From: a virus
Length of the DNA stretch: 50,341 bases
IMG/VR virus record: IMGVR_UViG_3300044632_001560
Coordinates: 1-50,341 of that record
Direction: 5' to 3' (one strand)
Position 1 is the first letter of the stretch. Each line of letters begins with the position of its first letter. The notes below the pieces were generated by a model, which was given only the letters and a program-made list of their open reading frames with translations, was not told the DNA's origin and did not search any database. Made by a program: the position numbers and the translations under genes. Below are positions 1 to 33,565 of this stretch, in pieces.

Positions 1-13
1 TTAAAATCCATTA

Positions 14-193
14 TTATTTTTCTTCTTTTCTTTTTTCAAGAATTTCACCTCTTAAAGTTTGTAATAATGATTTTAATTCTTGTGATGTTTTTCTAGCTCT
101 AGTCCCAGCACTATTATTCCCGTTATTGAATTTAGTGACATCACCTGAAAGAGACTCTGTTAAAGCTTTGATTTTTTCAATAGTTGTTTCCAT
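14..193 (-). CDS. Histone H1-like (Hc1-type) small DNA-binding protein
   Basis: A 59-residue reading frame starts at ATG 191-193 and ends with tandem TAA codons. The protein has an N-terminal amphipathic stretch beginning METTIEKIKALTESL, a central GNNSAGTRARKTSQELKSLL segment and a lysine-rich C-terminus (EILEKRKEEK). The 'GN.(A/S)AGTRARK.S.EL..L.....' core is the signature of the Hc1 histone H1-like proteins that are widespread in Bacteroidota and Chlamydiae, which bind and compact DNA. Its length matches the short Bacteroidota versions. It follows the 159-residue gene on the same strand with a 36-base AT-rich gap. A role in condensing phage or host DNA is inference; the family assignment rests on the motif. 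Confidence 0.8.
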   Translation of the reverse strand: METTIEKIKALTESLSGDVTKFNNGNNSAGTRARKTSQELKSLLQTLRGEILEKRKEEK

Positions 194-229
194 AAGTTTA
201 TTTTTTTAAAAAAATACTATTTTTTTTGT

Positions 230-709
230 TTATGTAAATCTAAATTTAGTACTTCGATTAAATGTTTTATAAATTGTTGTTATTAAATCTAAGTCGGATT
301 TAGTTATTACCGTTCCAAGTTTAAATACATCTTGAAAAAACTTAATCATTGAATCTTTGATGTATTTATTTTTTTGTTCGTAATAGATTTCAAATATGAA
401 GTCTTTAAGGAATACCTTGTGTTCTCCATCTTGTTCTATCATGATGTTTTCCTTTGAGAAGTTATTAACCACTTTATTCCAACACCATTCAAAATGGTCG
501 TCTTTTTCATCTTTGGTTAACCTAATTTTAGTTTCTGCGTTCTCATCTCCATCATCCCCTAAGTACGTATCCATAATCATAAGGACTAATGAAACAACAA
601 AATCCTGATAGACTTCGAGCCTTTCAAAAATTATATTATTAGATTCATACCAAAGACTAAACTCGTCTTCAGTAACTGGTTTTGATATGTAGTTAAAAAA
701 ATTCTCCAT
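230..709 (-). CDS. Hypothetical acidic protein
   Basis: A 159-residue protein beginning MENFFNYISKPVTEDEF. I do not recognise it. It is rich in acidic and aromatic residues, with a cluster DDGDENAETK around residue 55 and predicted mostly alpha-helical character. There is no signal peptide, and one mildly hydrophobic stretch (FVVSLVLMIMDTYL, about 37-50) is probably a buried helix. The start codon at 707-709 lies inside the 3' arm of a terminator-like hairpin (701-727). The next in-frame Met is at about residue 44, so the first ATG is preferred. It lies between the Hc1-like gene and a probable structural gene. Confidence 0.7.
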   Translation of the reverse strand: MENFFNYISKPVTEDEFSLWYESNNIIFERLEVYQDFVVSLVLMIMDTYLGDDGDENAETKIRLTKDEKDDHFEWCWNKVVNNFSKENIMIEQDGEHKVFLKDFIFEIYYEQKNKYIKDSMIKFFQDVFKLGTVITKSDLDLITTIYKTFNRSTKFRFT

Positions 710-727
710 AGGGATACTATGGAGAAT
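701..727 (-). terminator. Hairpin plus T-run (terminator or attenuator) overlapping a start codon
   Basis: A perfect 11-bp inverted repeat, ATTCTCCATAG / CTATGGAGAAT, with a 5-base loop. In the minus-strand direction it is followed at once by TTTTTT, which is the layout of an intrinsic terminator. It lies 28 bases after the stop of the 755-2233 gene. Its distal arm contains the ATG and second codon of the next gene (230-709), and the T-run encodes that gene's Phe-Phe. It may terminate the upstream transcript, or act as an RNA structure that sequesters the start codon. Confidence 0.6.
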
Positions 728-754
728 ATAATAAGATTTAATAAATCGTGTATG

Positions 755-2233
755 TTATTGAGTTTTTTTATTGTAACTCATAAGGTTCATAATTTTACTG
801 AACTCTTCACTAATTAAATTATTTTGTTCTTTTTCAAAAGTTGACTCTAACTTCATCATTAATTTACTTGCCTTATCCGTTTGTTCACCTGAAGAATCTT
901 TAACAATTGGTTGAGCGGATTTATTATAAGCCTTTCTTTTAATTTTAGATAACAAATTATCTTTTCTAATCTTATTTCTTTTTTTGTTAACATCGGATTC
1001 TCCTGTGTTCGCCCATCCTGGATTGTTACCAGTTCTTGAAGAACCTTCAATATTATCAGTTACCCATTTCTCGTCAGGATTTATTCCATCATAATCAATG
1101 TTTTCAAGTGCCGCAGCCGTTAAATTGTCCACATAATCATTAACCGCATCGGAAGGGATATAAGCCTTTTTATCCATTTTAGCCAATTGTCCGTTATTTT
1201 TTGGAAAAAATTTAGGGTTTGTATTGTACTGTCCCTTTGAACCATCTTTGAGATATTCTCTCATTTTTTTATCTACGTCTTTTAACGCGTCACTATTTTC
1301 TTTCTTATTCAATTTTGAAATTCTTTCATATTCAACTGTACCTTTAGCCTTACCTGAAAACTTTTCATTTTCTTTCGCTTCAATAACTAATTCCTCAATC
1401 ATATCAATCAACTCATCTTCAGTTAAATCCATTGTTGTGTTTTCAGTTAATGCTAATTTATACATAATTGACTCATTTTTAGCACCTGAGGTACCTTTCT
1501 TTCCCATTTTATTTACCGCTTTCTGAATAAATTTTTTAGCTTCTTCCAAACGGTCACTATTATTGGTTTTCGTCCCACTTTCATCCTCATCATCTTCCAA
1601 TTTTTGAGTTAAAAGACCAATTATCTCATCATAACTCATTTTTCCAAAATTTTTCTTTCCAAATCTTGGGTGTACATCATCCATACCACCTAACTCTTCA
1701 ATTTCAGATTTATTATGCTTTCTTAACATTTTAAAATCCTCAGAGTCAATTTTATTATTGTTATTTTTGTCTAACTTTTTTTGACCACCATATAGTTTTT
1801 CTTCTAATTCTGATTTGTCAACATAAGTTTTATTTCCAATTTTAAATTCACCACCTTTTTTGGTATCTTTCAATTTTTTTGTGAAAGCATTACCCTCGGT
1901 AAACTCGTCATTTTCTTTTTTCATTTCTTTATCTACATTTTTTATTTTATTCAACACTCCTTTTTTTGATAACATTATATCGTTACCTCTATCATCTTCA
2001 AAATGATAAGTTTGGGTTTCAGAATCACTCCTACCTTTTCTACCTCTACCTTTAAAAATTACTCTTTTAGGTTTTCCATTAACACTATCAAAAACATATG
2101 TCTGTTCATATTCTAAATCATAAGCATCAACTTCTAAAATATTAATTTTTTCTTCAAGTCTTGATGTCAATTCATTAATTTTGTCATCGATTGACTCATT
2201 CAAAATTTTATCTATGATAGTTTTCTTATTCAT
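755..2233 (-). CDS. Hypothetical charged, probable virion-associated protein with EF-hand-like loop
   Basis: 492 residues from ATG at 2231-2233 (MNKKTIIDKILNES). A longer frame would need a TTG and is rejected. The protein is very hydrophilic and lysine/glutamate rich, with likely helical N- and C-termini. It has a calcium-binding-like loop, DKNNNNKIDSEDF, at about residues 155-167 (D-x-N-x-N-x-x-I-D-x-x-D-F, as in EF-hand/dockerin loops). It contains a segment LALTENTTMDLTEDELIDMI, and the neighbouring gene has a similar LTLTENSTIKNIIKKL segment. The pairing with the next gene and the low-complexity charged composition resemble T4-like scaffold or internal-head proteins, but that is inference and the function is unknown. 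Confidence 0.65.
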   Translation of the reverse strand: MNKKTIIDKILNESIDDKINELTSRLEEKINILEVDAYDLEYEQTYVFDSVNGKPKRVIFKGRGRKGRSDSETQTYHFEDDRGNDIMLSKKGVLNKIKNVDKEMKKENDEFTEGNAFTKKLKDTKKGGEFKIGNKTYVDKSELEEKLYGGQKKLDKNNNNKIDSEDFKMLRKHNKSEIEELGGMDDVHPRFGKKNFGKMSYDEIIGLLTQKLEDDEDESGTKTNNSDRLEEAKKFIQKAVNKMGKKGTSGAKNESIMYKLALTENTTMDLTEDELIDMIEELVIEAKENEKFSGKAKGTVEYERISKLNKKENSDALKDVDKKMREYLKDGSKGQYNTNPKFFPKNNGQLAKMDKKAYIPSDAVNDYVDNLTAAALENIDYDGINPDEKWVTDNIEGSSRTGNNPGWANTGESDVNKKRNKIRKDNLLSKIKRKAYNKSAQPIVKDSSGEQTDKASKLMMKLESTFEKEQNNLISEEFSKIMNLMSYNKKTQ

Positions 2234-2262
2234 ACTATATAAATACCACAATAATTAGCTTT

Positions 2263-3126
2263 TTAGTTTTTAGAGTATTCTCTAATTATAATTTTTTTTA
2301 TAATTGACTCGTTAACTCCAAATTCTTTTGCCAATTTTTTAATAATATTTTTTATTGTACTATTTTCAGTTAAAGTAAGCGCATTAATATCTCCTTGATT
2401 ACAGTAAGGAAATTTCTTACATTTTTTTTTAACCTCAACAAATTTACCTCCAGGAATCTGTGTTTTACTTCTACCTCTCCACTTTTTTGGACTCATGGAT
2501 TTTGCTAAAAATGATGGTGTTTCATATGAACCTGAAGAAAATGAACTAGTCGCCTCTTTAGCTTCAACCTTTTCTAACTTATCATAATACTTTGGGTCCT
2601 CTGATAAGTGGTCTAAGGTTATGAGTTTAGGGTCCGCAGATTTATGTTCTTTTTCAACATTAACACCTTTGTTAAATTGTTTTTTTAAATCTTGATAAAT
2701 TTTTTCTATTTGTTCTTTCGATGGTGAGTCATTTTTTTCTTTAGCGTACTTTTTAGATAAGTCTCTTAATTTAGCCATAATAGTTCTTTCAGCTTCAGTA
2801 ATATTTTCTTGTACTTTACCTGACAGTGCGGTAACAAAAGCACCTGCACCTCCTGAAGATGCCGCCTCTTTATTCTCACTTTTCTTTTTCTTACCTTGGC
2901 AATGAGCTTTTTGACTAAAACCTTTAGGGTTGTTACAGTCTATACTTTTTTTGTACTTCTCAGACCATTTTTCATTAGTTTCACCTTTCTTCTCTTTTAT
3001 TGAACTGATGAAATCAGATTTAGTTTTAACACCTTCAATTGAGTTCAAATCGGAGTTTTGGGCAGAAGCCGCTGCAAATTGTTTGTTTAACTCACTTTTA
3101 AAATTACTTGCGATTTTGTTTTCCAT
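2263..3126 (-). CDS. Hypothetical phage protein with SIDC..PKGFSQKAHC motif
   Basis: 287 residues from ATG 3124-3126 (MENKIASNF). An upstream ATG would overlap the 81-residue gene by 46 bases and is not preferred; the chosen start leaves a 5-base gap. It carries two cysteine motifs that I recall recurring in proteins of marine and freshwater T4-like phages: SIDCNNPKGFSQKAHCQG (about 61-78) and VKKKCKKFPYCNQGDINAL (about 231-249). The rest is lysine-rich and hydrophilic, with an alanine/glycine-rich stretch (EAASSGGAGAF). The C-terminal 35 residues look like a helical tail. The paired cysteines suggest small metal-binding knots. It is probably a virion protein, by context and motif memory only. 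Confidence 0.65.
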   Translation of the reverse strand: MENKIASNFKSELNKQFAAASAQNSDLNSIEGVKTKSDFISSIKEKKGETNEKWSEKYKKSIDCNNPKGFSQKAHCQGKKKKSENKEAASSGGAGAFVTALSGKVQENITEAERTIMAKLRDLSKKYAKEKNDSPSKEQIEKIYQDLKKQFNKGVNVEKEHKSADPKLITLDHLSEDPKYYDKLEKVEAKEATSSFSSGSYETPSFLAKSMSPKKWRGRSKTQIPGGKFVEVKKKCKKFPYCNQGDINALTLTENSTIKNIIKKLAKEFGVNESIIKKIIIREYSKN

Positions 3127-13857: not shown

Positions 13858-16800
13858 TGGCTTTATTACCAGGTTATTATAAAGTAAATAGATGTTGTAA
13901 CGGTGTATCTCAAACTCAGTATGTTCTTTACGCCCCTAGCGGTATTCCTGACTATACTAATTACTTAGGTGATACTATAACTGTTCAAACAGGTGAAGTA
14001 TATATAATTGTAAGTTCAGGTTTCACATCAGGTGATTGTGGAATAATTGTATCCTCACTTCCAGGACCTAATCCATCTCTTTCAACATACACTTGGTCTG
14101 GGTTTGTAGGTAGTGGTGGTTATGGACCGTGTGCAAGTTTAACTAATAGTTGTGCTAGCTGTACTGTTTGTAAATCGGAGTTTCTAATTTGCGAAGATTC
14201 CGGTGGAGCTGCCACCACTCCGACACCTACACCAACAAAAACAAAAACTCCGACACCAACAAAAACTCATACCCCAACAAAAACAAAAACTCCATCAGTT
14301 ACACCTACTAAGACCCCTACCAAAACACCTACCAAAACACCTACCAAAACACCTACCAAAACACCCACACCAACAATCACTCCAACTAACGGATTTGTTG
14401 ATTGTACAATTTATTTAATAGACGCTAACGCGGATAGGATTATGACACTTAATCCTAGCGCAAATACATATAATCTTTTAGGAACTCTAACACCTGCGTT
14501 ATCTTCAAACGATGTCGCAGTTTCATCAAGTTATCTATATACTTCAAACTTAGGTAATACAATATACCGATATAATAAGACAACATTAACACTTGTTAAC
14601 ACTATTACAACAACAATTACGTTAGGTAGAGGTTTAGCAAGTATTAGTAATAATGTGTTGATTTGTAATTCAAGTAATTCAATTTATGAATTAAATGTAA
14701 GCACTTCAACAGCATCCAACACATTATTATTTCAATTACCAACAGGTTATTCAATCACAGGTGATTTAATTAAAACTTCATCAAACACGTATATAATGTC
14801 TGTAACAAGTAACACAGGTGTTAAGTACTTAAATGAATATGATGTTTCGGGTAATTTACAAAATTCGGTAAATTTAACAACTTTGGGATTGACTCAAGTT
14901 GAGGGTATCGCAACTCAAGGTAATAGTTTATTTTTAGTAAACAATTATTCAGTATATAGATTAATTTATAATGGTTCAAGTTTCCAAGTTATTTTCTTAT
15001 ACGACCTAATAAATGGTCAATCAATATCAGGAGCAGGTTCTTCAAGTCCTGGTTGTAACACAATAACATTAAATTACTTAATTAGTAACCCTGTTACACC
15101 AACTCCAGGTCCTACTCAAACTCCAACACCTACACCATCTTCAACGTCGGTTAATAAAAACGCTTATTATATATTACAAGAATGTTGTTCAGGTATTAAT
15201 TACCAAGTGACAGGCGTAAATTGGGTAGGTCAAAGTGTGGTTCCATCAGTTGGGATGACAGTTCATATGTCAATTAAAAATTTGTCATTAGGAACTGAAA
15301 TTACAAGTTGTTTTGTTCTTATTTCATTCTCAACAGTATTCAATGGAACGTTACCTCTTTATGGTCCTCCAACAGTCGCTTCAACTACAATAACAAAATA
15401 CGGAGCGAATGATTGTGCAACCTGTTTGTCATCTGAAGGTATTACATGTGTTACACCAACACCTACACCTACAGTAACTAAGACTCCGACTAAGACTCCG
15501 ACTAAGACTCCGACTAAGACTCCGACTAAGACTCCGACTAAAACTCCAACTCCTACTCCTACATCAGGAACTGACTCTTGTCCAATTTATGTTAATGCAG
15601 GAAAAAACATTTACATTAACAATCCAATCACAAATACAACAACATTAGTTGGTCAATTGGTTGGTGGTACAAATCAAGGTCCTGATTTGGCAGTATCTGA
15701 TAATTATTTTTTCAGTTACCTTAACCATGTCATCTCAAGATATAATAAACAAACATTACAATTTGTCGATTCGAGAACATTAACATATAATGGTAACCCT
15801 TTTTATTTAGGCGCAGGGTTAGATTCATTAAATGATAATTTAATAATAACAGAATCAAATGGTATTTTATATCAAGTTAATTTATTACCAAATCCCGCAA
15901 CAATAACTGAATTATTTCCATTAGGTGACGGTACAGGAATATCCTACTTAAATGGAGATATTTTAAAATTGACAAATGGTAAATATATTACAACAGAATA
16001 TCAAACAGGGGGAGGACCTGTAGCGTATTTAGTTCGTCAATATAGTTCAGACAACTCAGGGACTATTGAAGTTGAAATAAATGTTGGTAGTTTAGGGTAT
16101 AACGACATTTATGGAATCGGTATTAAGGCGGGTAATATTTATCTTTATCGAGGCAATAGTTTAGGCCAAGTATTACAATTAACATATAATTCAGGGTCTT
16201 GGGTATTAACCCCTGCAGGAGGCACTAGCGTATACAATCAAGGAGCTGCATCATTAATTATTTGTAATACAGTATCATTAAGTAATGTTCAAGGTAATCC
16301 ATCACCTGCCCCCGCACCAATACCCGCATCCCCAACACCAACGATTACACCAACTAAAACAAAAACTCCAACACCAACACATACATCAAATTTAGCTCAA
16401 GCAACATCTACACCAACCCCAACAAATACACCAACAAAAACAAAGACTCCAACACCAACAAAAACAAAGACTCCAACACCAACACCAAGTACAACCTCGA
16501 AATCAATAAAACCAACATCAACACCAACAAGAACCATTACCCCAACTAAATCACAAGTTTGTACTTCACCAAACATATTATCAGCAGTTTATTTAGGTGG
16601 TGACCAATTTTATGTAACTTGGGAGACTACTACAGGTAATTGTAACATTGTTACTTTATATTATTCTTTTGATGATATAACATATTCATCAAGTACCTTT
16701 GGGTGTGGTCCGTCAGTGACAATAGCCGCGTCAGGATATTTGACAGGTCCATTATATTTATACACATTAATTACTTGTACAGGAGGAGGTACCGCATCTC

Positions 16801-21104: not shown

Positions 21105-23078
21105 TTACCCTCCAAAAAATTGTTGACCTAAATTAACTGAAACTTGAACTATGTCATTACCTATCGATACTGTTGAACAAGGTGCGTTATAAAGTTTTAT
21201 GTTTCTTAATTGGTATTTCAATAAGTATTCATACTTTTTATTACAAGGAAATACACCATTTGGTTTATTACCTATTAGTATTGAATGATTGAATGATAAA
21301 TCGTATGTATCGGTACTAATCATTTGTAGACCATTATACATATCAACATCTAATACAATTGTTTTACCTGATAGGGCTCCTTTACATCCCGCTAATGGGA
21401 AATTAGTAATACTCTGAGGTTGTACCACAGGTGTCTGTAATATTGAATTTTTTTCAACTGAATTACTTGTTCCCCAATTATAATAGTCTGAAGAATTATA
21501 TTGAGGTGATTGGGTTATTTGACTTGTAAAACTTAAATCAAATTCAACAATAACACCGCTAGGTAATGATGGAGTGATTGTAATTTGTGCTAATCTACCA
21601 TTTGTAATAGTTGTAGTATATATCGAAGATGGATTAGATGTCCAATTTGTAGTTGTGTAGTTCCCTGTTGGGTTACCAACAAAATTAACACTTATAACAT
21701 AATTTTGATTTGCAATTTGTGGTACTGTTACACCAACATTAGATGTATTACTGTTATTATCCATAACATACAACGTGTAATTTCCTGATACCAAATTATT
21801 AAATAATGGAGAATTTTGATAAGTAATGTTATCAATTGAATATGTATACGGTGAAGAACCTCCGTTCGCAGTTGATAAAATACTTCCATTGTTAGTACAC
21901 GCACCGTTAGCCGTATATGTCAATGCCAATGGTTGAGACGAACAAGTACCCTCAGTTACTATAACTGGTCCATTTACTGTATTTCCAGCACCTAAGAATG
22001 TCCAACCATTATTAGGTATCGATGACGTTGTTGTTGTCCTTAATTGAGGAGTTTGGCTACCACACATTACTAATCCAATGAATTCCCAATAACTACCATT
22101 ATGTAATATGAAATATTGTCCATCTTCAGAAATCCAAGAGTAATGAGAATTGTATGTTCCATTATTAATAAATGTAATCAAATATGACTGTTCACAGTAT
22201 GTAAATGACATACATAGATTTGGAATTACAGGATTACTTCCCACACTTCTTGATGGAGTCATAGTTGGCGTAGTGGTAGGAGTAGTGGTCGGTGTAGGTG
22301 TCGGAGCATAAAATCCACAAGTAGTTGTGGATGAGAAATCTCCGTAATAATCTGTAACCACCGCAGTATAAAATCCATAACTAACATTATTTAAAGTTTG
22401 TGAAGTTTGACCATTAGACCACTGTATTGTATATGGTGGTGTACCTCCTGTTATAAATAAAGATAATATACCGTCACTTGATGTTGAGGTACTTGGTTCT
22501 TGAACTGTCTGACATTGTACCTCCATTGGATAAATGGTAATAATATCACATTCATTTCTACCTGTAATACGTAAACTTGCGGTTATTTCAGGATATGGAG
22601 TTCTAGATACTGAAACAGTTGGTGTTATTGTCGGAGTGACCGACATTGTAGGTGTGACAGTTGGAGTTCTTGTAACAGTTGGGGTCGGTGTAAATCCCAT
22701 ACTTTTAGTTGGGGTAGCCGTTCTTGTTGGTGTTGGAGTTTTTGTTTTTGTTGGTGTTGGAGTTTTTGTTTTGGTAGGGGTTAAAGTAGGAGTTCTTGTA
22801 ACCGTAGGTGTTGGGGTTGGGGATGTTGCACAACAAAATCCAGGAGCTTCGGAACAATTATTAAGTCCATTTAAAACTATTTCCGCAGTATCCGCACCAT
22901 AATCATAACCTGAAGATGATGGACCTATTAAATTTTCAATTACAAAACAAAAACTTGGTCCTTCAACAGTATTAATATACCACATCTCACCAACCTGTCC
23001 TCCACTTGGCATGTTGATGATATATTGAGCTCCGTCACAACAACTAACAACTAAATAATTATATGGTGGTACAAACAT
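21105..23078 (-). CDS. PT-linked modular fibre protein with SprB-like repeats
   Basis: 657 residues. An N-terminal cysteine module (YLVVSCCDGAQYIINMPSG ... CSEAPGFCC, about 8-85) is followed by a long TPTPTVTRTPT linker (about 85-165). An SprB-like repeat (GILSLFITGGTPPYTIQWSN, then TAVVTDYYG) comes next, then a short linker (TPTPTTTPTTTPTMTPS). A Cys domain and a second SprB-like repeat (NGGSSPYTYSIDNITYQNSP, then SGNYTLYVMDN) follow, ending in a ~190-residue C-terminal domain with no motif I recognise. Like its neighbours it is probably a receptor-contact fibre. The module order mirrors the plus-strand 1455-residue protein. Confidence 0.75.
   Translation of the reverse strand: MFVPPYNYLVVSCCDGAQYIINMPSGGQVGEMWYINTVEGPSFCFVIENLIGPSSSGYDYGADTAEIVLNGLNNCSEAPGFCCATSPTPTPTVTRTPTLTPTKTKTPTPTKTKTPTPTRTATPTKSMGFTPTPTVTRTPTVTPTMSVTPTITPTVSVSRTPYPEITASLRITGRNECDIITIYPMEVQCQTVQEPSTSTSSDGILSLFITGGTPPYTIQWSNGQTSQTLNNVSYGFYTAVVTDYYGDFSSTTTCGFYAPTPTPTTTPTTTPTMTPSRSVGSNPVIPNLCMSFTYCEQSYLITFINNGTYNSHYSWISEDGQYFILHNGSYWEFIGLVMCGSQTPQLRTTTTSSIPNNGWTFLGAGNTVNGPVIVTEGTCSSQPLALTYTANGACTNNGSILSTANGGSSPYTYSIDNITYQNSPLFNNLVSGNYTLYVMDNNSNTSNVGVTVPQIANQNYVISVNFVGNPTGNYTTTNWTSNPSSIYTTTITNGRLAQITITPSLPSGVIVEFDLSFTSQITQSPQYNSSDYYNWGTSNSVEKNSILQTPVVQPQSITNFPLAGCKGALSGKTIVLDVDMYNGLQMISTDTYDLSFNHSILIGNKPNGVFPCNKKYEYLLKYQLRNIKLYNAPCSTVSIGNDIVQVSVNLGQQFFGG
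22612..22829 (-). repeat. Pro/Thr linker repeats
   Basis: Degenerate 9-12-base units that on the minus strand encode T-P-T-x and T-K-T-P, for example the repeated plus-strand string TTTTTGTTGGTGTTGGAG. A second short tract of the same type is at about 22254-22307 in the same gene. Confidence 0.75.
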
Positions 23079-23130: not shown

Positions 23131-25500
23131 TTATGGTTTTACAGTTACAGTCCAATTGTATGGGGAATTTTTTAGGGCCAAATAATATGGGTTAGATAAA
23201 CCACCTGTCGGGGATTCAGGTTGTGGGATTGACGTTCCAGTAAATAATAAAGTTTTATTTGTTAATGTATTAGCGGTCGCCAATTTATAAAAATCCTCAA
23301 GTAAGAAATCTACCGCAGCCGTTTTTAAATCTGTCCTATAGAAATATCCGTAAGTAAACCCTGTCAGAGCCGAAAAAGAATTAGTCCATCCTGATAAATT
23401 AGTAGAAAGAGTGATATTAAAATTTTTCAGAGTTTTAGGAAAATTTCCTTGTATAAAATCTGACGAATCTTTAAAACCAGTTGAGTTCAAAGACAGAGTT
23501 ACTAAATTTGTAACCGCACTTAAATTAGTCGCAGCACTTAAAGTCAAATTAACACCTAAATTAATATTAGTCGCCCCTGTCATTAATCCAAAATTAATAT
23601 TAGTAAGATTATTATTATTAAAATCGATTGTTCGTATTGAAGACGGGAAGGTCTTAGTCCATCCAGTTAATCCAACTCTACTTATATCAAAAGAATTCAA
23701 ATTTGTAGAACCTGTCAATTCTTGAGACCATTCAGGTATATAGTTACCAATCACAAATTGATTTTCGATTGAGAAGGTCACTAAAGATGTTGGAATATTA
23801 CTAGTATAACCCGTTAAATCATTATTTTGTAATTCTAATGTTTGAATGGAGTTAGGAAAAATTGGGGGGATTGAAGTTAAATTATTATTATTAAGAGATA
23901 GTGTAACTAAACTTGTGTTTCCTGAAATTGAATTAAGGAATGAGGTGAGACTATTTTCACTAAAATCTATAGTAACTATTGACGTTGGGAAATTTTTAGT
24001 CCACGCAGTTAGTCCAACAGAGTTAGCCAAAAATGTTTGTAAATTTGTCGCTCCCGTAATTTCAACATTCCAAGTAGGTAATGAAGGGTTCCCAGTCCCT
24101 TTATTAATATTAAAGTAATTCATGGACGTTGGGAAATTAGAAGTATACCCTGTAAAATAATTACTATGAGCGGTTAGGTCAGTGATAGAATTCGGAAGTA
24201 TAGGTGGTAGTGTATTTAATTGGTTTCTATCAACTCTTAAATTGGTCAATGATGTGCAACCTGATATAGTTTCAGTAATACTTGTTAAACTATTGGTATA
24301 TAAATTTAATTGTGTCAAACCTGTATTATTTGACAAATCAGGTGAGAAATATCTAAATGAGTTTACACCTAAACTAAACCCTCCCTGTTGTTGTTCCATA
24401 TCAATTCTGGAAACTTGTGTTGGGAAATTTGTTGTCCACCCTGTAAAACGATTTGCATGTAAGTCAATCCTTGAAACCGTAGTGCTTGAACTTAATGGTT
24501 TTATAAAATTAATATCACTTAATTGTCCATTATCATATATGTAAATAACACCTCCGCTTTGAGGTGGGGCAAAGTTAAGATTTGTCAAACTCGAGTTATT
24601 TGTGATAACAAGTGATGCGGGTCGTGAAGTTGTAGTATATCCCGAATAATTAATAGTCGCCGAAGTAAAATTATTATAACGATAATAAACATTCTGTAAC
24701 TGAGTAATAGATGTTGGATTTAATATTTCAAAATCAAAAGTAGTTGCCGAGTTGTATTGATAAGTAAAAACATCAAAGGCGTTTGTCAATGCAAATTTAA
24801 AAGTATCGACAGTAGAATTAGTGATATATATTCCGTCTAAACTAGTAAATGCAGTAAAGGTATAATCATTCACAAAAATTTTAGATATTTTATCAACATA
24901 TATATCCCTTAAACCGTCAGCGGAATTTGGAAAAGTAGGTGAACCATATCTTAAATCATATATTGTTGTAATATAATCTGAAGGTACATAACTTTTACTT
25001 AATGCGACTAAATTTGTAGCGCCAGTGTAAGAAGGGTTAGTAATTGAATAATTTAACGGAGCTGTCCCATCTCCAAAATCTACCGTAAATTTACTATTTA
25101 ATTTAGCGTTTAAAGTTATTGACTGAGGGTTCGCTCCATTAATATTTTGAACTTGGAAATATGGAGGTACAGGTACTGATTTAGTAGGTGTTATAGATGG
25201 AGTAATACTTGGTGTAATTGTTGGTGTCGGTGTCGGCCCTACAGAAGTGGCAGTTGGGGTAGGTGTTGGTGTAGGTGTGGTAGGTACAAATTGAATTTCT
25301 TCACAACCTTCTGAACTTTGTACTGAAACAATCACAAATGGTAAACCTGACCAATCGGATGGGACATCAACATATATTGTTGGAGGTACATATGATAACT
25401 CATATGCCGCAAGAAAACAATTATTATTGTTATTATCGCAAACAGTTATCTGATAGGGTGGGGTACCGCTTATATTTGGGATTGTTATGTAGCAACTCAT
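23131..25500 (-). CDS. PT-linked fibre protein with leucine-rich repeats
   Basis: 789 residues. The N-terminal NITG/PY/CD module (YITIPNISGTPPYQITVCD) is followed by a TPTPTPTATS linker (about 78-112) and a PKD-like strand pair (KFTVDFGDGTAPLNYS). A long run of leucine-rich repeats follows (about 200-740), with units such as TSLTNLRVDRNQLNTLPPIL and TSLVTLSLNNNNLTSIPPIF, alternating with 'FTGYTSNFPTS' turns. The C-terminus, NPYYLALKNSPYNWTVTVKP, looks like a folded end. Leucine-rich repeats are protein- or glycan-binding scaffolds and are uncommon in phage fibres, so this could be the receptor-binding part. TATATTTG lies directly before the ATG. Confidence 0.75.
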   Translation of the reverse strand: MSCYITIPNISGTPPYQITVCDNNNNNCFLAAYELSYVPPTIYVDVPSDWSGLPFVIVSVQSSEGCEEIQFVPTTPTPTPTPTATSVGPTPTPTITPSITPSITPTKSVPVPPYFQVQNINGANPQSITLNAKLNSKFTVDFGDGTAPLNYSITNPSYTGATNLVALSKSYVPSDYITTIYDLRYGSPTFPNSADGLRDIYVDKISKIFVNDYTFTAFTSLDGIYITNSTVDTFKFALTNAFDVFTYQYNSATTFDFEILNPTSITQLQNVYYRYNNFTSATINYSGYTTTSRPASLVITNNSSLTNLNFAPPQSGGVIYIYDNGQLSDINFIKPLSSSTTVSRIDLHANRFTGWTTNFPTQVSRIDMEQQQGGFSLGVNSFRYFSPDLSNNTGLTQLNLYTNSLTSITETISGCTSLTNLRVDRNQLNTLPPILPNSITDLTAHSNYFTGYTSNFPTSMNYFNINKGTGNPSLPTWNVEITGATNLQTFLANSVGLTAWTKNFPTSIVTIDFSENSLTSFLNSISGNTSLVTLSLNNNNLTSIPPIFPNSIQTLELQNNDLTGYTSNIPTSLVTFSIENQFVIGNYIPEWSQELTGSTNLNSFDISRVGLTGWTKTFPSSIRTIDFNNNNLTNINFGLMTGATNINLGVNLTLSAATNLSAVTNLVTLSLNSTGFKDSSDFIQGNFPKTLKNFNITLSTNLSGWTNSFSALTGFTYGYFYRTDLKTAAVDFLLEDFYKLATANTLTNKTLLFTGTSIPQPESPTGGLSNPYYLALKNSPYNWTVTVKP

Positions 25501-25521: not shown

Positions 25522-26346
25522 CTACATATTTTTAGGGTACTTAAAAATCTCGTTATACCACCCATAATTATTATAAATCCAATCACAAATATCTGAACCT
25601 AAAATTTTTTGAGCATCCGATGGTAATAACTCTAAAGTCTTTTTTATCTTATGGTCCCCAAAAATACCATACACTTCATCATCTTCTTTTGTTATTTGTT
25701 CAATGTTTTCAAAATCATGTTCAAAATAAGGTATTTCAAAATATTCATAAATTTTTCTCATGATTAAATCGGGATACAAACATAAATCCTCATACTTAAC
25801 AAACATCATATTTTCATTAATACCTTGTCTGAAAATTTCTTGTAGTCTTTCAATCGCCATACCAACAGGTTGTGAGTTTGCCCATATGTCTATTCTTTTA
25901 GGTGTTGATGTTCCTTTCAAATCCGAATGATTTACAATCCCAAAATCTTTGTGCTGATTTTTTCTAAAGTTTTTTTCCATAGAGGTATAGATATCTCTAA
26001 GGTCTCTCACCATACAAACAACTTTTGGTTTATCAACAATTTGTTGTAAAAATCCATAATGGACACCCCATCCTCTACTTTTATCAACCACATATTTTTT
26101 ATCAGTAATACTTTCATAAAAACCAGTTAACCCCTCTTTACAAAAAGATAAAAATGCGTTTTTCATAAGTTCAGGGTCCTGAGCTTTGAATTCAGGTGAA
26201 TTACTATAGTTTGCTCTAGCCGCGTACACTAACTCTAAAACACCACTTGTTGGTGTTGCGTATATGTCAGGGTTTTGAGCTAAAATGTTTTGTAGTAGAG
26301 TACTACCTGCTCGTGGTAGTGAACTCTGAAAAAATAATCTTTCCAT
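25522..26346 (-). CDS. Sulfotransferase
   Basis: 274 residues from ATG 26344-26346 (MERLFFQSSLPRAGSTLLQN); an upstream TTG start would overlap the SET gene. The 5'-phosphosulfate-binding loop SSLPRAGSTLLQN (8-20) and the 3'-phosphate region VVCMVRDLRDIYTSM (109-123) define the PAPS-dependent sulfotransferase fold; VVDKSRGWG (86-94) and FVKYEDL are also typical. It would transfer a sulfate from PAPS to a hydroxyl on a glycan or protein. It follows the SET gene by two bases and lies in a cassette with a glycosyltransferase among fibre genes, suggesting virion or host-surface modification. Confidence 0.85.
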   Translation of the reverse strand: MERLFFQSSLPRAGSTLLQNILAQNPDIYATPTSGVLELVYAARANYSNSPEFKAQDPELMKNAFLSFCKEGLTGFYESITDKKYVVDKSRGWGVHYGFLQQIVDKPKVVCMVRDLRDIYTSMEKNFRKNQHKDFGIVNHSDLKGTSTPKRIDIWANSQPVGMAIERLQEIFRQGINENMMFVKYEDLCLYPDLIMRKIYEYFEIPYFEHDFENIEQITKEDDEVYGIFGDHKIKKTLELLPSDAQKILGSDICDWIYNNYGWYNEIFKYPKNM

Positions 26347-26348
26347 TT

Positions 26349-26735
26349 TTAATATATTTTTTTTACTGATTCCCAATATTCTTTTTTTCCATATGATGTA
26401 CAAATTTCTTCACCTGGCTCAATATCTTTAACCGCAATAAAATAATACATTCCATTATCTGAATCACATGTCCATGTTGCATTATTATCATCACTATGAT
26501 TGTAAATACACCCATACCCAAGAGGTATTGCGTACTTTATTGGAGATGCCCCACAAGGATATGAGAAACGATATTTTAGTAATATATCATCGTTTGACCC
26601 TAAATCTGTTTTGAAAAAAATTGAATAACAGGTTTCAATTATTTCATCTTTTAATATTTTTTCAATCGCGAAAACCCCAAATCCGTGAATTGGGGACGAT
26701 TTCACTTCAATTTTATTTGGTATCGGGATGTTCAT
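26349..26735 (-). CDS. SET-domain protein (probable lysine methyltransferase)
   Basis: 128 residues, the size of a minimal SET domain as in the chlorovirus vSET protein. Motifs in order: SSPIHGFGVFAIE (13-25, the G.GVFA cofactor motif), YNHSDDNNATW (78-88, the NHS cofactor/substrate motif) and IEPGEEICTSYG (105-116, the GEEI...Y motif). A post-SET zinc tail is absent. Family members use S-adenosylmethionine to methylate protein lysines. It overlaps the upstream glycosyltransferase gene by 23 bases and is followed closely by the sulfotransferase, so all three are co-translated. Its substrate is unknown; candidates are the Hc1-like protein or Lys-containing PT linkers. Confidence 0.85.
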   Translation of the reverse strand: MNIPIPNKIEVKSSPIHGFGVFAIEKILKDEIIETCYSIFFKTDLGSNDDILLKYRFSYPCGASPIKYAIPLGYGCIYNHSDDNNATWTCDSDNGMYYFIAVKDIEPGEEICTSYGKKEYWESVKKIY

Positions 26736-27603
26736 TGTTACTTAAAGAATTTAATATGTTCTCAATGTCAAACATTTCAAACTCATCATTATATGGGAAT
26801 TCCAAAGGTTCTCCCATTATGTTAAACTTGTTTAAATATGACATTTTTAATTCTGGTTTTTTTGTGAATTGGTTTGAAACAATATTTTTATTTGTTTCAT
26901 ATCCAAATACTTTTGGTGAGTTAACAATCCACAAAACTGTGGATTCTAATTTTAGAGCTCCCGCAACATGTTGACCAAAACTATCCATAAAAAATCTTTT
27001 ATTACTTATCGCAATTAAAGTTGCAACTGACCTAAAAGTATCAGTGACAGGGATTGTATTAGCGAAAGATGGTTGGTCTTCTCTTTTCAGGTGAAAAATA
27101 GTGTAACCATATTTAAATTTTTCAATCACACTTTCAACAATATGGAATGGAATGTCACGAGCCCAAGAGTATTTCAAATTTTGTTCAACCCCTCCATTAG
27201 TTTGAATAACCATGATTGGTTTATCAGTTGTGTATTTTCTTGAAAAGAAATTAATCTCTCTCTCAGTTAGATATATGTTTGGTTGTTCACCATTATATTC
27301 TAAATCAAATAGTTTACACCAAGTTTCAATTAAATGTTCTGTTTTATTAATATGGTTAGTTTCAAGGTATGGGTCATGAGCCAAAAGTTTGAATTCTTTA
27401 TCTTCAATATAGTCAGAATAAAAATAAGAATGTTCACCAAAATTAAACGCTCGGTCAACATGTGGATTGTTTAAGAAAACATCAGGATATCCTGAGACAA
27501 CAATAAGTTTAGAATTTGGGTATTTTTTTTTAATTACTTCGGTAACTGCGGTTGCCAAAATACATTTACCTATACCACCATTAATTTGGAAAATTATATT
27601 CAT
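26713..27603 (-). CDS. Glycosyltransferase, GT9/heptosyltransferase-like
   Basis: 296 residues from ATG 27601-27603 (MNIIFQINGGIGKCILATAV). The N-terminal Rossmann glycine loop QINGGIGKCILATAVTEVIK and the C-terminal RFFMDSFGQHVAGALKLEST (the 'DS..QH.A.AL' nucleotide-sugar-binding signature) match the ADP-heptose:LPS heptosyltransferase (GT-B, GT9) pattern. It would transfer a sugar to a glycan or protein acceptor. It follows the giant S74 fibre gene with a 37-base gap that contains an 18-bp palindrome adjacent to the start codon. Its position with sulfotransferase and SET genes suggests a modification cassette for fibres. Confidence 0.75.
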   Translation of the reverse strand: MNIIFQINGGIGKCILATAVTEVIKKKYPNSKLIVVSGYPDVFLNNPHVDRAFNFGEHSYFYSDYIEDKEFKLLAHDPYLETNHINKTEHLIETWCKLFDLEYNGEQPNIYLTEREINFFSRKYTTDKPIMVIQTNGGVEQNLKYSWARDIPFHIVESVIEKFKYGYTIFHLKREDQPSFANTIPVTDTFRSVATLIAISNKRFFMDSFGQHVAGALKLESTVLWIVNSPKVFGYETNKNIVSNQFTKKPELKMSYLNKFNIMGEPLEFPYNDEFEMFDIENILNSLSNNEHPDTK

Positions 27604-27640: not shown

Positions 27641-30600
27641 TTATTGTGAAGATGAATTTTTAAGTAATTCAATTTCTTTTTCAAGTTTTTCAACTCTTAA
27701 TATTGTTTCTTGTAATGATTTAACTGTTAGAGATAAAATACCATCATAATCTAGTCCGTATGTTCCGTCTTCTTTTTCACCATCGCCAAGCACTAATTCA
27801 GGGTATGCAATAAGTACATCTTGTGCTACAAAACCGTGTCTTGTTGTACCACTATAATCTTTATATTCAAATTTAACAGGTTTTAGATTTAAAATATGTG
27901 GTGTGATTTCATCATTAATATACTGAACATTTATTTTTCTTCTTAAATCGGATGTTCCACCTCCTGGTGTACTTAATACTCCGGCATCCGTAAGTGAGAG
28001 TATAATTGTACCATAAGTGCTGTTAACGACTTCAAGTCCTCCTGTACCATTCACTCTAAAAGTTTTATTTGGGTTTGTTGCACCTCCTGAGTTATTGGTA
28101 ACTCTAATAAAATCTATGTAACTAGCGCCTCCGACTGTTCCACTTCCACAAAATGTGGTTAACGCTCCTACGGAACTACCGCTTATAGTTATACTTCCTT
28201 TTGTTCCTGAAATAGTACCAACAGAACCGCTAAAACTTGGAGAGTTAACTGAAGTGGTTCCACAAAAATTATTAGAATAGAATGTACATGCCACAGAAGC
28301 GGTTAATCCACATCCAGCAGCGAATGAAAAATTAGACGACACAGTATTTCCACTACCTCCAACAATACCACTAAATTGACCTGTAACCGAATTACACCCT
28401 CCTCCACCAACAAATGAATTTAAATTAGATATCCTATTACAGAATCCACCATTAATTACTGAACAATCACTACCTGAAGTAACCGCATTACAAATACCAC
28501 CACCAATAAATGAGTATGAAGTATGACCAGAATTATTAGCACCTCCTAAAACAGATGTTGAGAATAAACAAGAAATATTATTTAAACCTCCTCCTAATAC
28601 TGAATAACACCCATTTGATATCCCTTGATACCCCCCTCCTAAAAACGCAAAGTCACAACACGCAGAATTTTTAAACCCTCCACCAATTGTCGTACTTTGT
28701 CCTGAAATAACATTACATTGTCCTCCACCAATAAAAGAATAAGAACAACAACTTCTATTACATTGTCCTCCACCAATAAATGACCAAGCACCTATTGTAC
28801 AATTTAATTCACCTCCAACTACAGTAACATAATTACCTGTAAGTCCTGAGTTTCTAAGACCACCACCTATAAATCCTGCAACACTTGAATTAGTATTCAA
28901 ACATCCCCCGCCAATAGTTGAATATTTACTACTTGAGGTGTTACCACATCCTCCTAAAACCGCACTATAACCTCCAGAAACAGTATTTGAAATCCCACCT
29001 AAAATAGATGAATAAGAACCAGTATTAATAGTATTCCCTCTTCCACCAACAATTGAAGAATAGCTTGATGATACTGTGTTACAAGCTCCCGCACCAATAA
29101 ATGATGTCCCACCACTATTAGAGTTACAACTTCCAGCACCTATAAATGAATTACCTCCTGAACCAATATTACAACATCCTCCAACAACAGTAATTAAAAA
29201 TGTAGAAACGTTAGCACTTATAATATTACAACACCCACCACCAATAAATGAAGATGGTCTTGAAACTATATTATTTCTATTACCACTTACAATAGTAGAA
29301 TAACAACCACTATTAGTATTACCACTTCCAACAAGTATTGAGCCGTAATATGCTAAATTACAAATACAGTTACCAATTCCATTAACAACAGTTGAGTAAC
29401 ACGCATTTAATGTATTACCACTACCATTACCCACAAATGACCAATCAGCATTGTTATAATTACAATAACCGTTAACAACCGTTGACCCGCTTCCTGTCGT
29501 ATTATTTTGAAATCCATTTCCAATAAATGAAAAAGTTCCTGATGATTGAGTTACAGCACCTGATGGTGAAAATACTAAATTGTTCCAATCAGGTGTACCT
29601 CCACAAGTTCCGTTACCAAAACCACTACCAATAAATGACCAAACACCTGTCAAATTTTTAGCTGCCCCACATATTCTGTTTGATGTCCCTCCACCAATAA
29701 ACGAATGAGATGAAAAACAAATAATATTACTATTTCCATTTATTATTGATGTATAACCCGACGTTGTAACATTATTATGACCTCCCATAACATGACTACC
29801 ATTACCAACAAAACCGTAAGTCACATTATTAATCTGATGTCCAAATCCATTAATAACAGTGGTCGCGTAACTACCACAAACAAAACTATTAGTACCTCCA
29901 ATAATTTGATTATAAGAACATCCTTTATCATTACCATCAATAATTTGAGAGCAATTGGTGTTCATTTGTAATGAAAAAGTATTACGCCAAATACAAGATG
30001 ATGTTGAATTACCGATTAAATTTGAGTCCCCACAAATCCATCCCCCACATTTACCAACGTTTCCATTATTACTTATTATTGTTGAGTGTGAACCACATAT
30101 AATACTTCCCCCATAGGTAAATCCTTTACCGGCATTAATAATTGCGGAATAATTACCACTTATAGTATTAGAGTTACCATTACCTATATAAGAGCTACAC
30201 CCCGAAACAATATTGTTATAACCATTAGAAATGAATGACCCTGTTGTGTTTGCTGATAATGTATTACCACTACCATTACCTATAAATGAGTATGTTGACG
30301 TATTAATTGTATTACCACTACCATTAATAATACTTGAAAAACAAGAGGTTTTACCACATATGTTATTCAAACATCCATTAGTGATGGTGTTAAAAGAAGC
30401 TCCTTGTGATAAATTACATATACCATTAATTACACTACCATATCTTGATGAGACAGTATTACCAATACCGTTACCAATTAATGATGAAACAGACGATGAG
30501 GTATTTCCGGTACCATTAATAATTGAACCATAGATATTACTAGTGGTATTGTTCCTACCACCCCCTATAAAACTATATGACCCACTTGTTGTGTTTTTAT

Positions 30601-33565
30601 ACCCTCCACTAATAGTTGATGAAATAGAACATGCGGAATTACAACATCCATTTAGGATTGTTGTAAACGTTCCAAGGGAACTTACTAAATTATTAAATCC
30701 GTTTAAAATATTTGATGTATCACCTAAAACCCTATTTAAACATCCATTACCAATAATTGTATACGCAAATTTTGAACTTGCTCCTGATAGAATGTTTGAA
30801 CATCCCGCTAAAATTACACTATTACTTGTATTACCCGTATTTGAGGAACCATTTAATATTGTAACATTCGCAAATGAAGGAGTGATAATATTTGACTGTC
30901 CGTTAAGTATTGATGACTGATTTCCACAAGAACAGTTTAAAGTACCACCACCAATAAACGAAGTACAACCTGATACAATATTTCGGTATCCCCCTGATAT
31001 GGTTGAGTAAATTCCTGACGAGGTATTAAATCTACCACCAACTACTGAGCTATAAGAACCACAAGAAAAGTTTCTATACCCTCCTGATATGGTTGAATAT
31101 ATTCCTGATGAAGTATTACATTTTCCGCCAAGAACAGATGAACAAGCTCCATAAGCACAGTTATTAATACCCCCACCAATTGTTGAGGTTAGTCCTGTTG
31201 CTGAGTTTGAACTTCCTCCTCCAATAAATGAACAAGTTCCAACAGCATTATTACCAGTACCTCCAACAACCGCACTATGAGTTCCACAAGAATTGTTTTT
31301 ATAACCACCTAAAATTGATGAACATCCTCCTACCGCACAGTTAAAATAACCACCACTAATAGTACTAAAGTCACCATACGAAATATTTTTATAACCACCA
31401 CCAATAGTTCCTGAGCTACCTGTGACACAGTTTACTTGTCCACCTGCGATAACACTATTAACAGATGTTCCGGTATTTAATTGTCCCCCTCCAATAAATG
31501 AAGAAGGTCCGTTTGAATAGTTTTTATACCCCCCACTTACGGTCGCACACCCTCCATTAGCCCAATTACACTTACCACCCCCAATTATGGATGAGTTACC
31601 TGAAGCACAATTTATTAAACCTCCTAATACAGAAGAGTAACAACCACTTGAGGTATTTTTATACCCACCACCTACTATTGAATAATCGCAAGTTGCAGTG
31701 TTACTATTTCCTCCACCTATTGTCGACCAAAAACAATTTGCAGTGTTAACACTCCCTCCACCTATTGTCGACCCATTTCCATTTGTAGTGTTACCATTTC
31801 CTCCACCTATGGTTGATACCGGCCCAATTGACTCATTATCTTCACCTCCACCTATTGTCGACCCATTTCCTGTTGCGCAATTTGTATGCCCCCCTCCAAT
31901 TGTTGCGTAATATTGAGAACTAATACTATTTACATACCCTCCATTGATGGTATTGAAACATCCATAGATACCTACGTTATTAAGATTAATAATTGGAGTA
32001 CTATATACATTTGACCCAGTATTCACTGATAAATCCAAACAAGTATACCCCCCACTATATGATGAATTAGTAATATCACCTTTAATTAAATTACCATCAT
32101 AATTATTAAAAAATTGGACAGTGTCACCATTAGGGTATAACGCTGTAACATCCCCACTAAGATATACTCTATTATAACCAGAATTCGTACAATATAGATT
32201 TGAATACGTTATACCCTTACCAATAATATTAGAGACTCCACCATTAATGTTACCAGCATAAGATTTAACAATATTACCTAATCCTCCTAAAATTGAGGAA
32301 GCCTGTGATTCAACACTATTATAGTTACCCCCTAAAATTGAGGAGCACACACCTTTACCAGTAACTATATTACATTTACCACCACCAACAGTTGAGTATT
32401 CACTACTTGAGGTGTTACCTTGTCCTCCACCTACGGTTGAGTAATAAGAACTTGCGGTGTTACCTTGTCCTCCACCTACAGTTGAGTTATTACCACTTGC
32501 GGTGTTTTGATATCCCCCACTTACGGTTGAGTATTTACTACTTGAGGTGTTTTGATATCCCCCACTTACGGTTGAGTTATAACTACTTGCGGTATTACCA
32601 ACTCCACCACCTACGGTTGAGTTGTAACCACTTGCAGTATTACCAACTCCACCACCTACGGTTGAGTATTTACTACTTGAGTTGTTTTTATATCCACCAC
32701 CAACAGTTGAGTATTTACTACTTGAGGTGTTACAATATCCCCCACTTACGGTTGAGTTATAGGAACTTGATGTATTACAACGTCCACCACCTACGGTTGA
32801 ATAAAATCCACTTGATGTATGAAAACCTCCTCCTCCGATTGTTGAAAAATAATTACTTGAGGTGTTACCTTGTCCTCCACCAACAAATGAATAATTACCT
32901 GAAGCGGTATTACCTGAACCCGCAAGAGCACCTCCAAAATCACCCGCAGCCGTATTATTAACCCCACATCTTATTGTGGAATTAATTCCTGTACCTGTAA
33001 TATATAAAGTACTTGCGGATGAGGTACTTCCAGTTGAACCGTATTTTTTCCAAATAGCGGTAGCGTGTGTTGCGCCTCCAACACCTTCAATAGTCGATGC
33101 CGTCCAAGCGTTAATGAAGTTTTGACTTGCAACAGTCGTATTATTAATTGTGGTTCCAAAATCATAAAATGTAATTGCAGTAGTTGCAGTTACCGCAGAC
33201 CATAATGATTCGTAATTATCAATTCTGAATTGGTACACTTGGTCGTCTTCATAGACGTAAGCCAACATACCCAACCTTTTTCTTCCCGAAGATATATTAT
33301 CAGAATTAAGTGTTAGTACATCAGGTGAAAATACCGCACCAGTCCCCTTTGTAAATTGTATTGGTATGGTATTACCACTATACTCAATTGGTCCAAATGT
33401 TGCAGATGGTATTGTATATACTAAATCAGTAAGATTAAATACCTCCATGTACCCACCAACTCCAAGTACTGAAAAATTTGTTCCAAATGTTTCGGACCTT
33501 TCAACAGATTGTACTCCATTTAATTGTTCTGAACTTATTGGGTTTTTATATGGGAATGTAGACAT
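27641..33565 (-). CDS. Giant repeat-rich trimeric fibre with C-terminal S74 chaperone
   Basis: 1974 residues. An N-terminal attachment domain (1 to ~195) precedes a very long array of ~15-residue repeats of the form ST(V/I)GGG.xNT(A/S)SGxY (roughly residues 200-1735; about 90-100 units by estimate, not counted). One non-repeat insertion of about 100 residues lies near residue 430-530. This resembles the left-handed beta-roll/prism repeats of trimeric adhesins (YadA head/Hep_Hag). After a linker comes an S74 intramolecular chaperone: TSDLRRKINV (Ser1872 is the expected self-cleavage residue), TRHGFVAQDV and a final coiled coil (ETILRVEKLEKEIELLK). It should fold as a trimer and release the chaperone. 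Probably the main long fibre. Confidence 0.88.
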   Translation of the reverse strand: MSTFPYKNPISSEQLNGVQSVERSETFGTNFSVLGVGGYMEVFNLTDLVYTIPSATFGPIEYSGNTIPIQFTKGTGAVFSPDVLTLNSDNISSGRKRLGMLAYVYEDDQVYQFRIDNYESLWSAVTATTAITFYDFGTTINNTTVASQNFINAWTASTIEGVGGATHATAIWKKYGSTGSTSSASTLYITGTGINSTIRCGVNNTAAGDFGGALAGSGNTASGNYSFVGGGQGNTSSNYFSTIGGGGFHTSSGFYSTVGGGRCNTSSSYNSTVSGGYCNTSSSKYSTVGGGYKNNSSSKYSTVGGGVGNTASGYNSTVGGGVGNTASSYNSTVSGGYQNTSSSKYSTVSGGYQNTASGNNSTVGGGQGNTASSYYSTVGGGQGNTSSSEYSTVGGGKCNIVTGKGVCSSILGGNYNSVESQASSILGGLGNIVKSYAGNINGGVSNIIGKGITYSNLYCTNSGYNRVYLSGDVTALYPNGDTVQFFNNYDGNLIKGDITNSSYSGGYTCLDLSVNTGSNVYSTPIINLNNVGIYGCFNTINGGYVNSISSQYYATIGGGHTNCATGNGSTIGGGEDNESIGPVSTIGGGNGNTTNGNGSTIGGGSVNTANCFWSTIGGGNSNTATCDYSIVGGGYKNTSSGCYSSVLGGLINCASGNSSIIGGGKCNWANGGCATVSGGYKNYSNGPSSFIGGGQLNTGTSVNSVIAGGQVNCVTGSSGTIGGGYKNISYGDFSTISGGYFNCAVGGCSSILGGYKNNSCGTHSAVVGGTGNNAVGTCSFIGGGSSNSATGLTSTIGGGINNCAYGACSSVLGGKCNTSSGIYSTISGGYRNFSCGSYSSVVGGRFNTSSGIYSTISGGYRNIVSGCTSFIGGGTLNCSCGNQSSILNGQSNIITPSFANVTILNGSSNTGNTSNSVILAGCSNILSGASSKFAYTIIGNGCLNRVLGDTSNILNGFNNLVSSLGTFTTILNGCCNSACSISSTISGGYKNTTSGSYSFIGGGRNNTTSNIYGSIINGTGNTSSSVSSLIGNGIGNTVSSRYGSVINGICNLSQGASFNTITNGCLNNICGKTSCFSSIINGSGNTINTSTYSFIGNGSGNTLSANTTGSFISNGYNNIVSGCSSYIGNGNSNTISGNYSAIINAGKGFTYGGSIICGSHSTIISNNGNVGKCGGWICGDSNLIGNSTSSCIWRNTFSLQMNTNCSQIIDGNDKGCSYNQIIGGTNSFVCGSYATTVINGFGHQINNVTYGFVGNGSHVMGGHNNVTTSGYTSIINGNSNIICFSSHSFIGGGTSNRICGAAKNLTGVWSFIGSGFGNGTCGGTPDWNNLVFSPSGAVTQSSGTFSFIGNGFQNNTTGSGSTVVNGYCNYNNADWSFVGNGSGNTLNACYSTVVNGIGNCICNLAYYGSILVGSGNTNSGCYSTIVSGNRNNIVSRPSSFIGGGCCNIISANVSTFLITVVGGCCNIGSGGNSFIGAGSCNSNSGGTSFIGAGACNTVSSSYSSIVGGRGNTINTGSYSSILGGISNTVSGGYSAVLGGCGNTSSSKYSTIGGGCLNTNSSVAGFIGGGLRNSGLTGNYVTVVGGELNCTIGAWSFIGGGQCNRSCCSYSFIGGGQCNVISGQSTTIGGGFKNSACCDFAFLGGGYQGISNGCYSVLGGGLNNISCLFSTSVLGGANNSGHTSYSFIGGGICNAVTSGSDCSVINGGFCNRISNLNSFVGGGGCNSVTGQFSGIVGGSGNTVSSNFSFAAGCGLTASVACTFYSNNFCGTTSVNSPSFSGSVGTISGTKGSITISGSSVGALTTFCGSGTVGGASYIDFIRVTNNSGGATNPNKTFRVNGTGGLEVVNSTYGTIILSLTDAGVLSTPGGGTSDLRRKINVQYINDEITPHILNLKPVKFEYKDYSGTTRHGFVAQDVLIAYPELVLGDGEKEDGTYGLDYDGILSLTVKSLQETILRVEKLEKEIELLKNSSSQ
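28330..32970 (-). repeat. Coding array of ~45-base repeats in the S74 fibre gene
   Basis: Repeats with the plus-strand core CCTCCACCTACGGTTGAG or diverged forms recur about every 45 bases, matching the ~15-residue protein unit. Units between about 32390 and 32880 are nearly identical at DNA level, while those at lower coordinates are much more diverged and often carry Cys codons. This suggests recent tandem expansion near the protein's N-terminal end. Confidence 0.8.

Follow-up and report, generated by a model that had tools for sequence, protein, structure and literature searches.

According to a passage of PMC4358343, the heptosyltransferase TibC / BAHT heptosylates the repetitive surface proteins TibA and AIDA-I, and Asp-110 of TibC is described there as the catalytic base. 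In mycobacteriophages, glycans are carried by virion proteins, on capsid and tail-tube C-termini (Freeman et al. 2023, cited in PMC12619734). OM43 phages have sulfotransferases, and the function of phage sulfotransferases has been called unclear (PMC10580990). The Synechococcus phages S-SKS1, S-SRM01 and S-SCSM1 also encode sulfotransferases, 27-30% identical to the one described below, and Chlorella virus PBCV-1 encodes a small stand-alone SET protein, vSET. The locus analysed here differs from the mycobacteriophage case in that repeat fibres are the proposed targets and in that a sulfotransferase and donor-synthesis genes accompany the glycosyltransferase, and from PBCV-1 in that its SET gene lies in a phage fibre region. 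A search of the published literature, covering open-access papers but not preprints, found no such cassette. Its best explanation, which we hold with moderate confidence, is a fibre-linked glyco-sulfation cassette, one of probably two, in a large tailed phage that perhaps infects Bacteroidota.

The DNA that was analysed, hereafter the window, comprises 50,341 nt (positions 1 to 50,341 of IMG/VR record IMGVR_UViG_3300044632_001560). Its relevant features are as follows.

1..2713, minus strand: left edge of the window; identity with contig G002 is 100% here, and G002 runs on into a second cassette.
21105..23078, minus strand: second PT/KT-linked fibre-like protein, with SprB repeats (PF13573 5.6e-8).
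23131..25500, minus strand: PT-linked fibre-like protein, the downstream neighbour; weak leucine-rich-repeat matches (LRR_8 E 5.5e-4, under the Pfam cut-off).
25522..26346, minus strand: PAPS-dependent-type sulfotransferase, 274 aa from ATG; PF13469 5e-18 and PF00685 8.7e-12, both above cut-offs; PRxGS motif.
26349..26735, minus strand: small SET-domain lysine methyltransferase-like protein, 128 aa; PF00856 1.1e-13, above cut-off; residues 8-123 align to vSET 1n3j.
26713..27603, minus strand: GT9-fold glycosyltransferase (GT), ATG start; assigned by AF2 model and fold comparison.
27641..33565, minus strand: giant repeat fibre with a C-terminal S74 chaperone (PF13884 5.8e-8) and a repeat motif; the proposed substrate.

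A preliminary description had recognized a glycosyltransferase, a SET methyltransferase and a sulfotransferase between the giant S74 fibre and PT-linked fibres, and both the identities (Pfam for the SET protein and the sulfotransferase, fold for the GT) and the placement are borne out. It had also called the three genes overlapping or abutting, which holds with one amended boundary: GT (27603-26713) and SET (26735-26349) overlap by 23 bases, and the start of the sulfotransferase has moved. The best starts are ATG 27603 (GT), ATG 26735 (SET) and ATG 26346 (sulfotransferase); the last is most likely correct, rather than TTG 26403, because the ORF is 274 aa long from that Met in relatives L005-L009 and L051, and the ORF from TTG 26403 is not present in relatives such as L005. 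The SET and sulfotransferase genes are therefore 2 bases apart. Over 11 pairs (four relatives each for GT and sulfotransferase, three for SET), dN/dS was estimated at 0.02-0.19, and dS exceeded 1, hence was unreliable, in 9 of them; because of these values and the recurrence of the same gene order in other contigs, the cassette is not a chance arrangement. The identities of the sulfotransferase, the SET protein and the APS kinase discussed below are secure, and that of the GT is at the level of fold.

The GT identity rests on predicted fold because the window protein has no Pfam match at E 1 and no NCBIfam match; one of 33 family members matches PF01075, at E 0.046, short of the cut-off. Classing the GT by sequence failed in other ways as well, with no useful match in the PDB and a 3.4% probability in hhalign against WaaF, although that alignment still pairs the C-terminal DSxxxH motif. 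The AlphaFold model (pLDDT 85) was matched by fold comparison (VIA) to 3tov (Z 23.2; rmsd 3.2 over 271 aligned residues), WaaF (21.6), WaaC (19.9) and TibC (19.4), with GT9 chains at Z 19-23 overall, three plant NDH-supercomplex chains at Z 18-19, and all remaining folds at about 11 or less. The GT thus shares a GT9-type fold with TibC, from which it differs in lacking the N-terminal barrel (the model aligns from TibC residue 95), in belonging to a family without the iron finger (no column has Cys in 90% of rows), and in having Lys where TibC has its catalytic Asp. That Lys ends a GGxGK motif and is invariant in 33 rows, and it is likewise present in all 79 proteins of a second set that overlaps the first. 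G12-D13 is invariant in WaaF, WaaC and WaaU; Lys takes the position of D13, the Asp after GxG that we take to be the catalytic Asp of WaaF and WaaC, in 33 of 33 GT rows, an equivalence set by position from the start Met rather than by residue-level structural alignment. Ordinary heptosyl transfer is therefore doubtful.

Neighbouring genes bear on the donor. In three relatives (L013, L046, L053), genes of three families come after the APS kinase gene; those of L013 have HldE kinase (TIGR02198 3.6e-39), HldE adenylyltransferase (TIGR02199 5.3e-26) and HldD (TIGR02197 2.4e-49) as best matches, all under the curated cut-offs. The HldE kinase model matches 3 of the 51 contigs bearing the sulfotransferase, below its cut-off, and is not specific by itself because all 14 control genomes match it too. 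Searches with profiles built for this analysis found HldE/HldD-like genes in 5 of 43 further contigs located through the GT (L119, L123, L124, L144, L154). Together with the GT9 fold, these genes point to ADP-heptose as a candidate donor; since they occur in a minority of contigs, other phages would need ADP-heptose from the host.

The sulfotransferase family is uniform, with PF13469 above cut-off in 51 of 51 contigs. P11, R12, G14 and S15, R114 and S122 are invariant in 32 rows; we take PRxGS to be the 5'-phosphosulfate loop and the Arg...Ser pair (R114/S122) to be the 3'-phosphate motif. At the stretch aligned with GEETR of protein-tyrosine sulfotransferases, whose Glu is presumably their catalytic residue, the window protein has no Glu. 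Interrupted sulfotransferase genes were seen at L054 10001-10808 and L082 8735-9550.

The sulfotransferase query retrieved 54 viral loci, to which mechanical ORF calling and clustering were applied, and 51 whole contigs. Loci were counted as testable with at least 900 bases upstream for the GT, at least 3 kb downstream for APS kinase and nucleotidylyltransferase, and at least 6 kb for DUF2061. Almost every contig is a fragment, and there are near copies among them (46 distinct sequences in 56 members of the sulfotransferase cluster), so that the counts are not of independent events. In 49 of 50 testable loci a GT is encoded upstream of the sulfotransferase, no more than three genes away, the single miss being the most distant member (L055, 48% identity); downstream lie genes for an APS kinase (42/49), a nucleotidylyltransferase (36/49) and a DUF2061 protein (29/40). 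The reverse test gave a similar picture: among the best 80 of 277 relatives found with the GT alignment, counted on 43 contigs outside the sulfotransferase set, a sulfotransferase lies within nine genes downstream of the GT in 37 of 41 testable contigs and an APS kinase is present in 25 of 38, the four contigs in which no sulfotransferase was found being L116, L120, L151 and L165. A protein of about 110 residues (family F6), with no Pfam match above cut-off, is often encoded just before the GT (L023 8694-9071 and relatives) and is common to the bacterial locus L080. An FkbM-type methyltransferase gene (PF05050 8.5e-15) directly follows the sulfotransferase gene at L041 10831-11628, and likewise in L039, L040 and L042.

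The APS kinase (family F3) matches PF01583 above cut-off, has the P-loop and DGD motifs, and matches solved APS kinases by profile at E 1.4e-17; two members scanned do not reach the NCBIfam APS kinase cut-offs. It is above the Pfam cut-off in 44 of the 51 whole contigs. Among the seven others, G000 and G001 end before the site where G002 has the gene, G015 and G016 carry a member of the APS kinase cluster, and the member in L016 matches PF01583 if scanned alone; whole-contig searches found no APS kinase on G005 (222 kb), G040 (111 kb) or G052. The nucleotidylyltransferase (family F5) has NMNAT and PPAT as nearest solved structures, and one of two proteins matched PF01747, at E 0.21, below cut-off; these matches do not establish it as an ATP sulfurylase.

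For the window's virus, PAPS genes very probably lie beyond the window's left edge. Contig G002 matches the window's left edge and also 15.2 kb around the trio at 99.96% identity (17.9 kb compared in all), and a second cassette starts on it about 3.1 kb past the left edge, outside the window. This cassette (L070 5825-12464) consists of a 1127-residue repeat protein (repeats identified by eye), a sulfotransferase (PF13469 8.4e-18), an APS kinase (1.2e-18), a nucleotidylyltransferase, DUF2061 and a GT 39.5% identical to the first. Given this near-identity, the window's virus very probably has two cassettes and one set of PAPS genes. In G002 and G003, whole-contig searches place the PAPS genes about 30 kb from the trio; no second sulfotransferase was found in G003. 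Loss of PAPS genes in the window's lineage was rejected, as these genes lie about 30 kb away in both contigs and G002 is 99.96-100% identical to the window.

The candidate substrate is the repeat fibre upstream. S74 domains occur on 25 of the 51 contigs and are lacking from 26; on the 25, an S74 domain lies upstream of the sulfotransferase, on the same strand and within 3.5 kb, at 21 of 26 places. The S74 fibre of the window has 80 matches to the repeat motif, whereas its shuffled versions average 6.17 and reach 14 at most. The motif itself was composed with the window fibre in view. Applied to the best upstream ORF at each of 46 loci, it scores above every one of 200 shuffles at 34 loci and fails at 12; in the control, 8 of 338 downstream ORFs taken singly pass, a count not equivalent to one of best ORFs. 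The upstream-fibre cluster (F0), found in 35 of 43 loci, is linked partly by repeats, and the S74 and motif tests were therefore used alongside it. The window fibre is 15.5% Ser, 9.6% Thr and 11.4% Asn, with 2% Lys; a profile scan of it matched S74 only, with no beta-roll match. Among repeat proteins of other loci, the one in L080 matches a beta-roll model of grass antifreeze protein and the one in L079 matches YadA head and S74, and the fibre repeats may accordingly be of beta-roll shape.

Similar arrangements occur in other viruses. In the cultured Pelagibacter phage HTVC112P, a GT of the same family overlaps an annotated tail fibre gene by one base, and in the single-cell marine virus AG-345-L05 (L075 3582-19497) there are repeated fibre-like and oxygenase-like ORFs, recognized by eye, the fibre-like ones interleaved with two sulfotransferases and one GT. 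The sulfotransferases of S-SKS1 and S-SRM01 lie beside repeat proteins (by eye), in stretches where scans found no GT of the cassette family and no APS kinase. Evidence against virion decoration includes distant sulfotransferases away from fibres, as in S-SCSM1, where the gene lies among others annotated as endonucleases or in DNA metabolism, among other annotations, with no annotated fibre beside it, and cellular loci without the GT: L084 and L085 (Synechococcus single cells) and L086 have a close sulfotransferase, and no GT of this family was found in the stretches scanned.

One scan of a genome collection yielded 15 cellular loci, nine of them close (52-61% identity), of which five come from contigs assigned to four Bacteroidota MAGs; binning of these contigs could be wrong, and their other neighbours look, by eye, like housekeeping genes. 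The Bacteroidota loci L080-L083 resemble the phage loci in having a GT and a sulfotransferase (57-59% identity) behind a repeat protein. L080 (2427-11747) encodes CysN, CysD, an F6-like small protein (E 2.5e-20), the repeat protein, an NHL protein that bears a secretion-tail domain, GT, sulfotransferase and a fusion of DUF2061 to a full-length APS kinase; L081 (2524-10816) encodes APS kinase, CysN, CysD, a repeat protein, an NHL-like protein (by eye), GT and sulfotransferase. They differ from the phage loci in the presence of CysD and CysN (L080, L081), in the DUF2061 fusion of L080, in the sulfotransferase of L082, which is split over two ORFs, and in phylogeny, the four sampled Bacteroidota rows forming their own group (100/98) in a tree that does not settle the direction of transfer.

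These comparisons bear on whether the enzymes might instead act during infection on a surface glycan of the host, such as LPS or capsule, perhaps as a block to superinfection, with fibre adjacency reflecting the clustering of receptor-related genes. The GT9 relatives WaaC and WaaF are LPS heptosyltransferases, and further glycosyltransferase or sugar genes lie nearby in places, for instance a gene of the GT25 family in L052 and another in the bacterial contig L081; we nevertheless consider this explanation unlikely, because the enzymes adjoin fibre genes in most viral loci and the Bacteroidota locus pairs them with a repeat protein and sulfate-activation genes. Virion decoration, as put forward in the preliminary description, is favoured by context, since at most viral loci the neighbour of the GT and sulfotransferase is a repeat or S74 fibre, and an APS kinase usually accompanies the pair; the PT linkers that it had named as the target fare less well.

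PT linkers and the SET gene are confined to part of the family. The closest solved relative of the window SET protein is PBCV-1 vSET (1n3j, E 8.3e-13), with which it aligns nearly end to end. In the window, in L002-L009 and in L051, a SET gene separates the GT and sulfotransferase genes, and SET lies within two genes of the sulfotransferase in 9 of 50 testable viral loci; six sulfotransferases sampled from this group fall into a single clade (support 98/97). The idea that the three chemistries act as one unit was hence rejected, and the SET gene is a clade-specific insertion whose product is probably a lysine methyltransferase acting on a virion or host protein. Seven of 51 contigs show the TPTPTPT coding pattern, and all seven are SET-bearing (7 of 10, versus 0 of 41 others). 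In the window, a TPT coding pattern lies at 25253-25278, inside the neighbouring gene 23131-25500. Separately, a 1455-residue ORF with PT repeats lies at 13857-18224 of the window, on the strand opposite to the fibre genes. A SET relative of a different cluster was noticed at L064 7695-10381, near an HldE-like kinase and a sulfotransferase-like protein (by eye only), and part of the SET clade has five further genes past the DUF2061 gene (L007 10905-15929), some glycosyltransferase-like by eye; the one scanned had no Pfam match at E 0.01.

PT linkers were rejected as the general target, as the GT-sulfotransferase pair is common without them. A narrower proposal, that the PT linkers of adjoining fibres are the substrates and that SET methylates linker lysines, draws on their adjacency in the window, on the lysine-rich composition of some linkers and on the restriction of PT repeats to SET-bearing contigs, so that SET might act on these lysines; a single SET clade cannot tell such a link from shared descent, and the whole trio recurs in G007, G008 and G009, which lack the TPTPTPT pattern and so, to the extent that fragments can, count against PT linkers as the target. 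As an account of the cassette we regard it as improbable. It is very improbable that the sulfur genes feed host sulfate assimilation in the manner of ordinary auxiliary metabolic genes, with the sulfotransferase and GT as unrelated neighbours: a passage of a virome survey does group viral cysC with sulfur-assimilation pathways (PMC13288924), but the APS kinase gene lies few genes from that of the sulfotransferase and, where it is the next gene, usually overlaps it by 4 bases.

Under the favoured explanation, a fibre-linked glyco-sulfation cassette, the GT9-fold enzyme would add a sugar, plausibly heptose from ADP-heptose, to Ser/Thr/Asn-rich turns of the adjoining beta-roll-like fibre, and the sulfotransferase would then sulfate the added sugar, or a fibre hydroxyl, using PAPS. 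The phage APS kinase would boost PAPS, for the window's virus from the second cassette outside the window; its nucleotidylyltransferase neighbour may activate sulfate, and a DUF2061 protein is frequently encoded nearby. From these data we infer the roles of the nucleotidylyltransferase, DUF2061 and SET proteins, together with the host, the timing of expression, the fibre as substrate, the heptose donor, the order of the steps and the benefit to the phage.

More tentatively, and with considerable doubt, phages and Bacteroidota might share a portable system in which a Lys-type GT, a dedicated sulfotransferase and the system's own PAPS supply coat beta-roll repeats with a sulfated sugar, a minimal NMNAT-like enzyme replacing ATP sulfurylase in the phages. 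If the portable system is real, this would, to our knowledge, be the first virus known to produce a sulfate donor of its own and to use it for sulfating the virion. If the favoured explanation of the cassette holds, phage sulfotransferases and viral cysC can belong to one pathway of fibre modification, and a share of the genes now counted as auxiliary metabolic genes would be virion-maturation genes.
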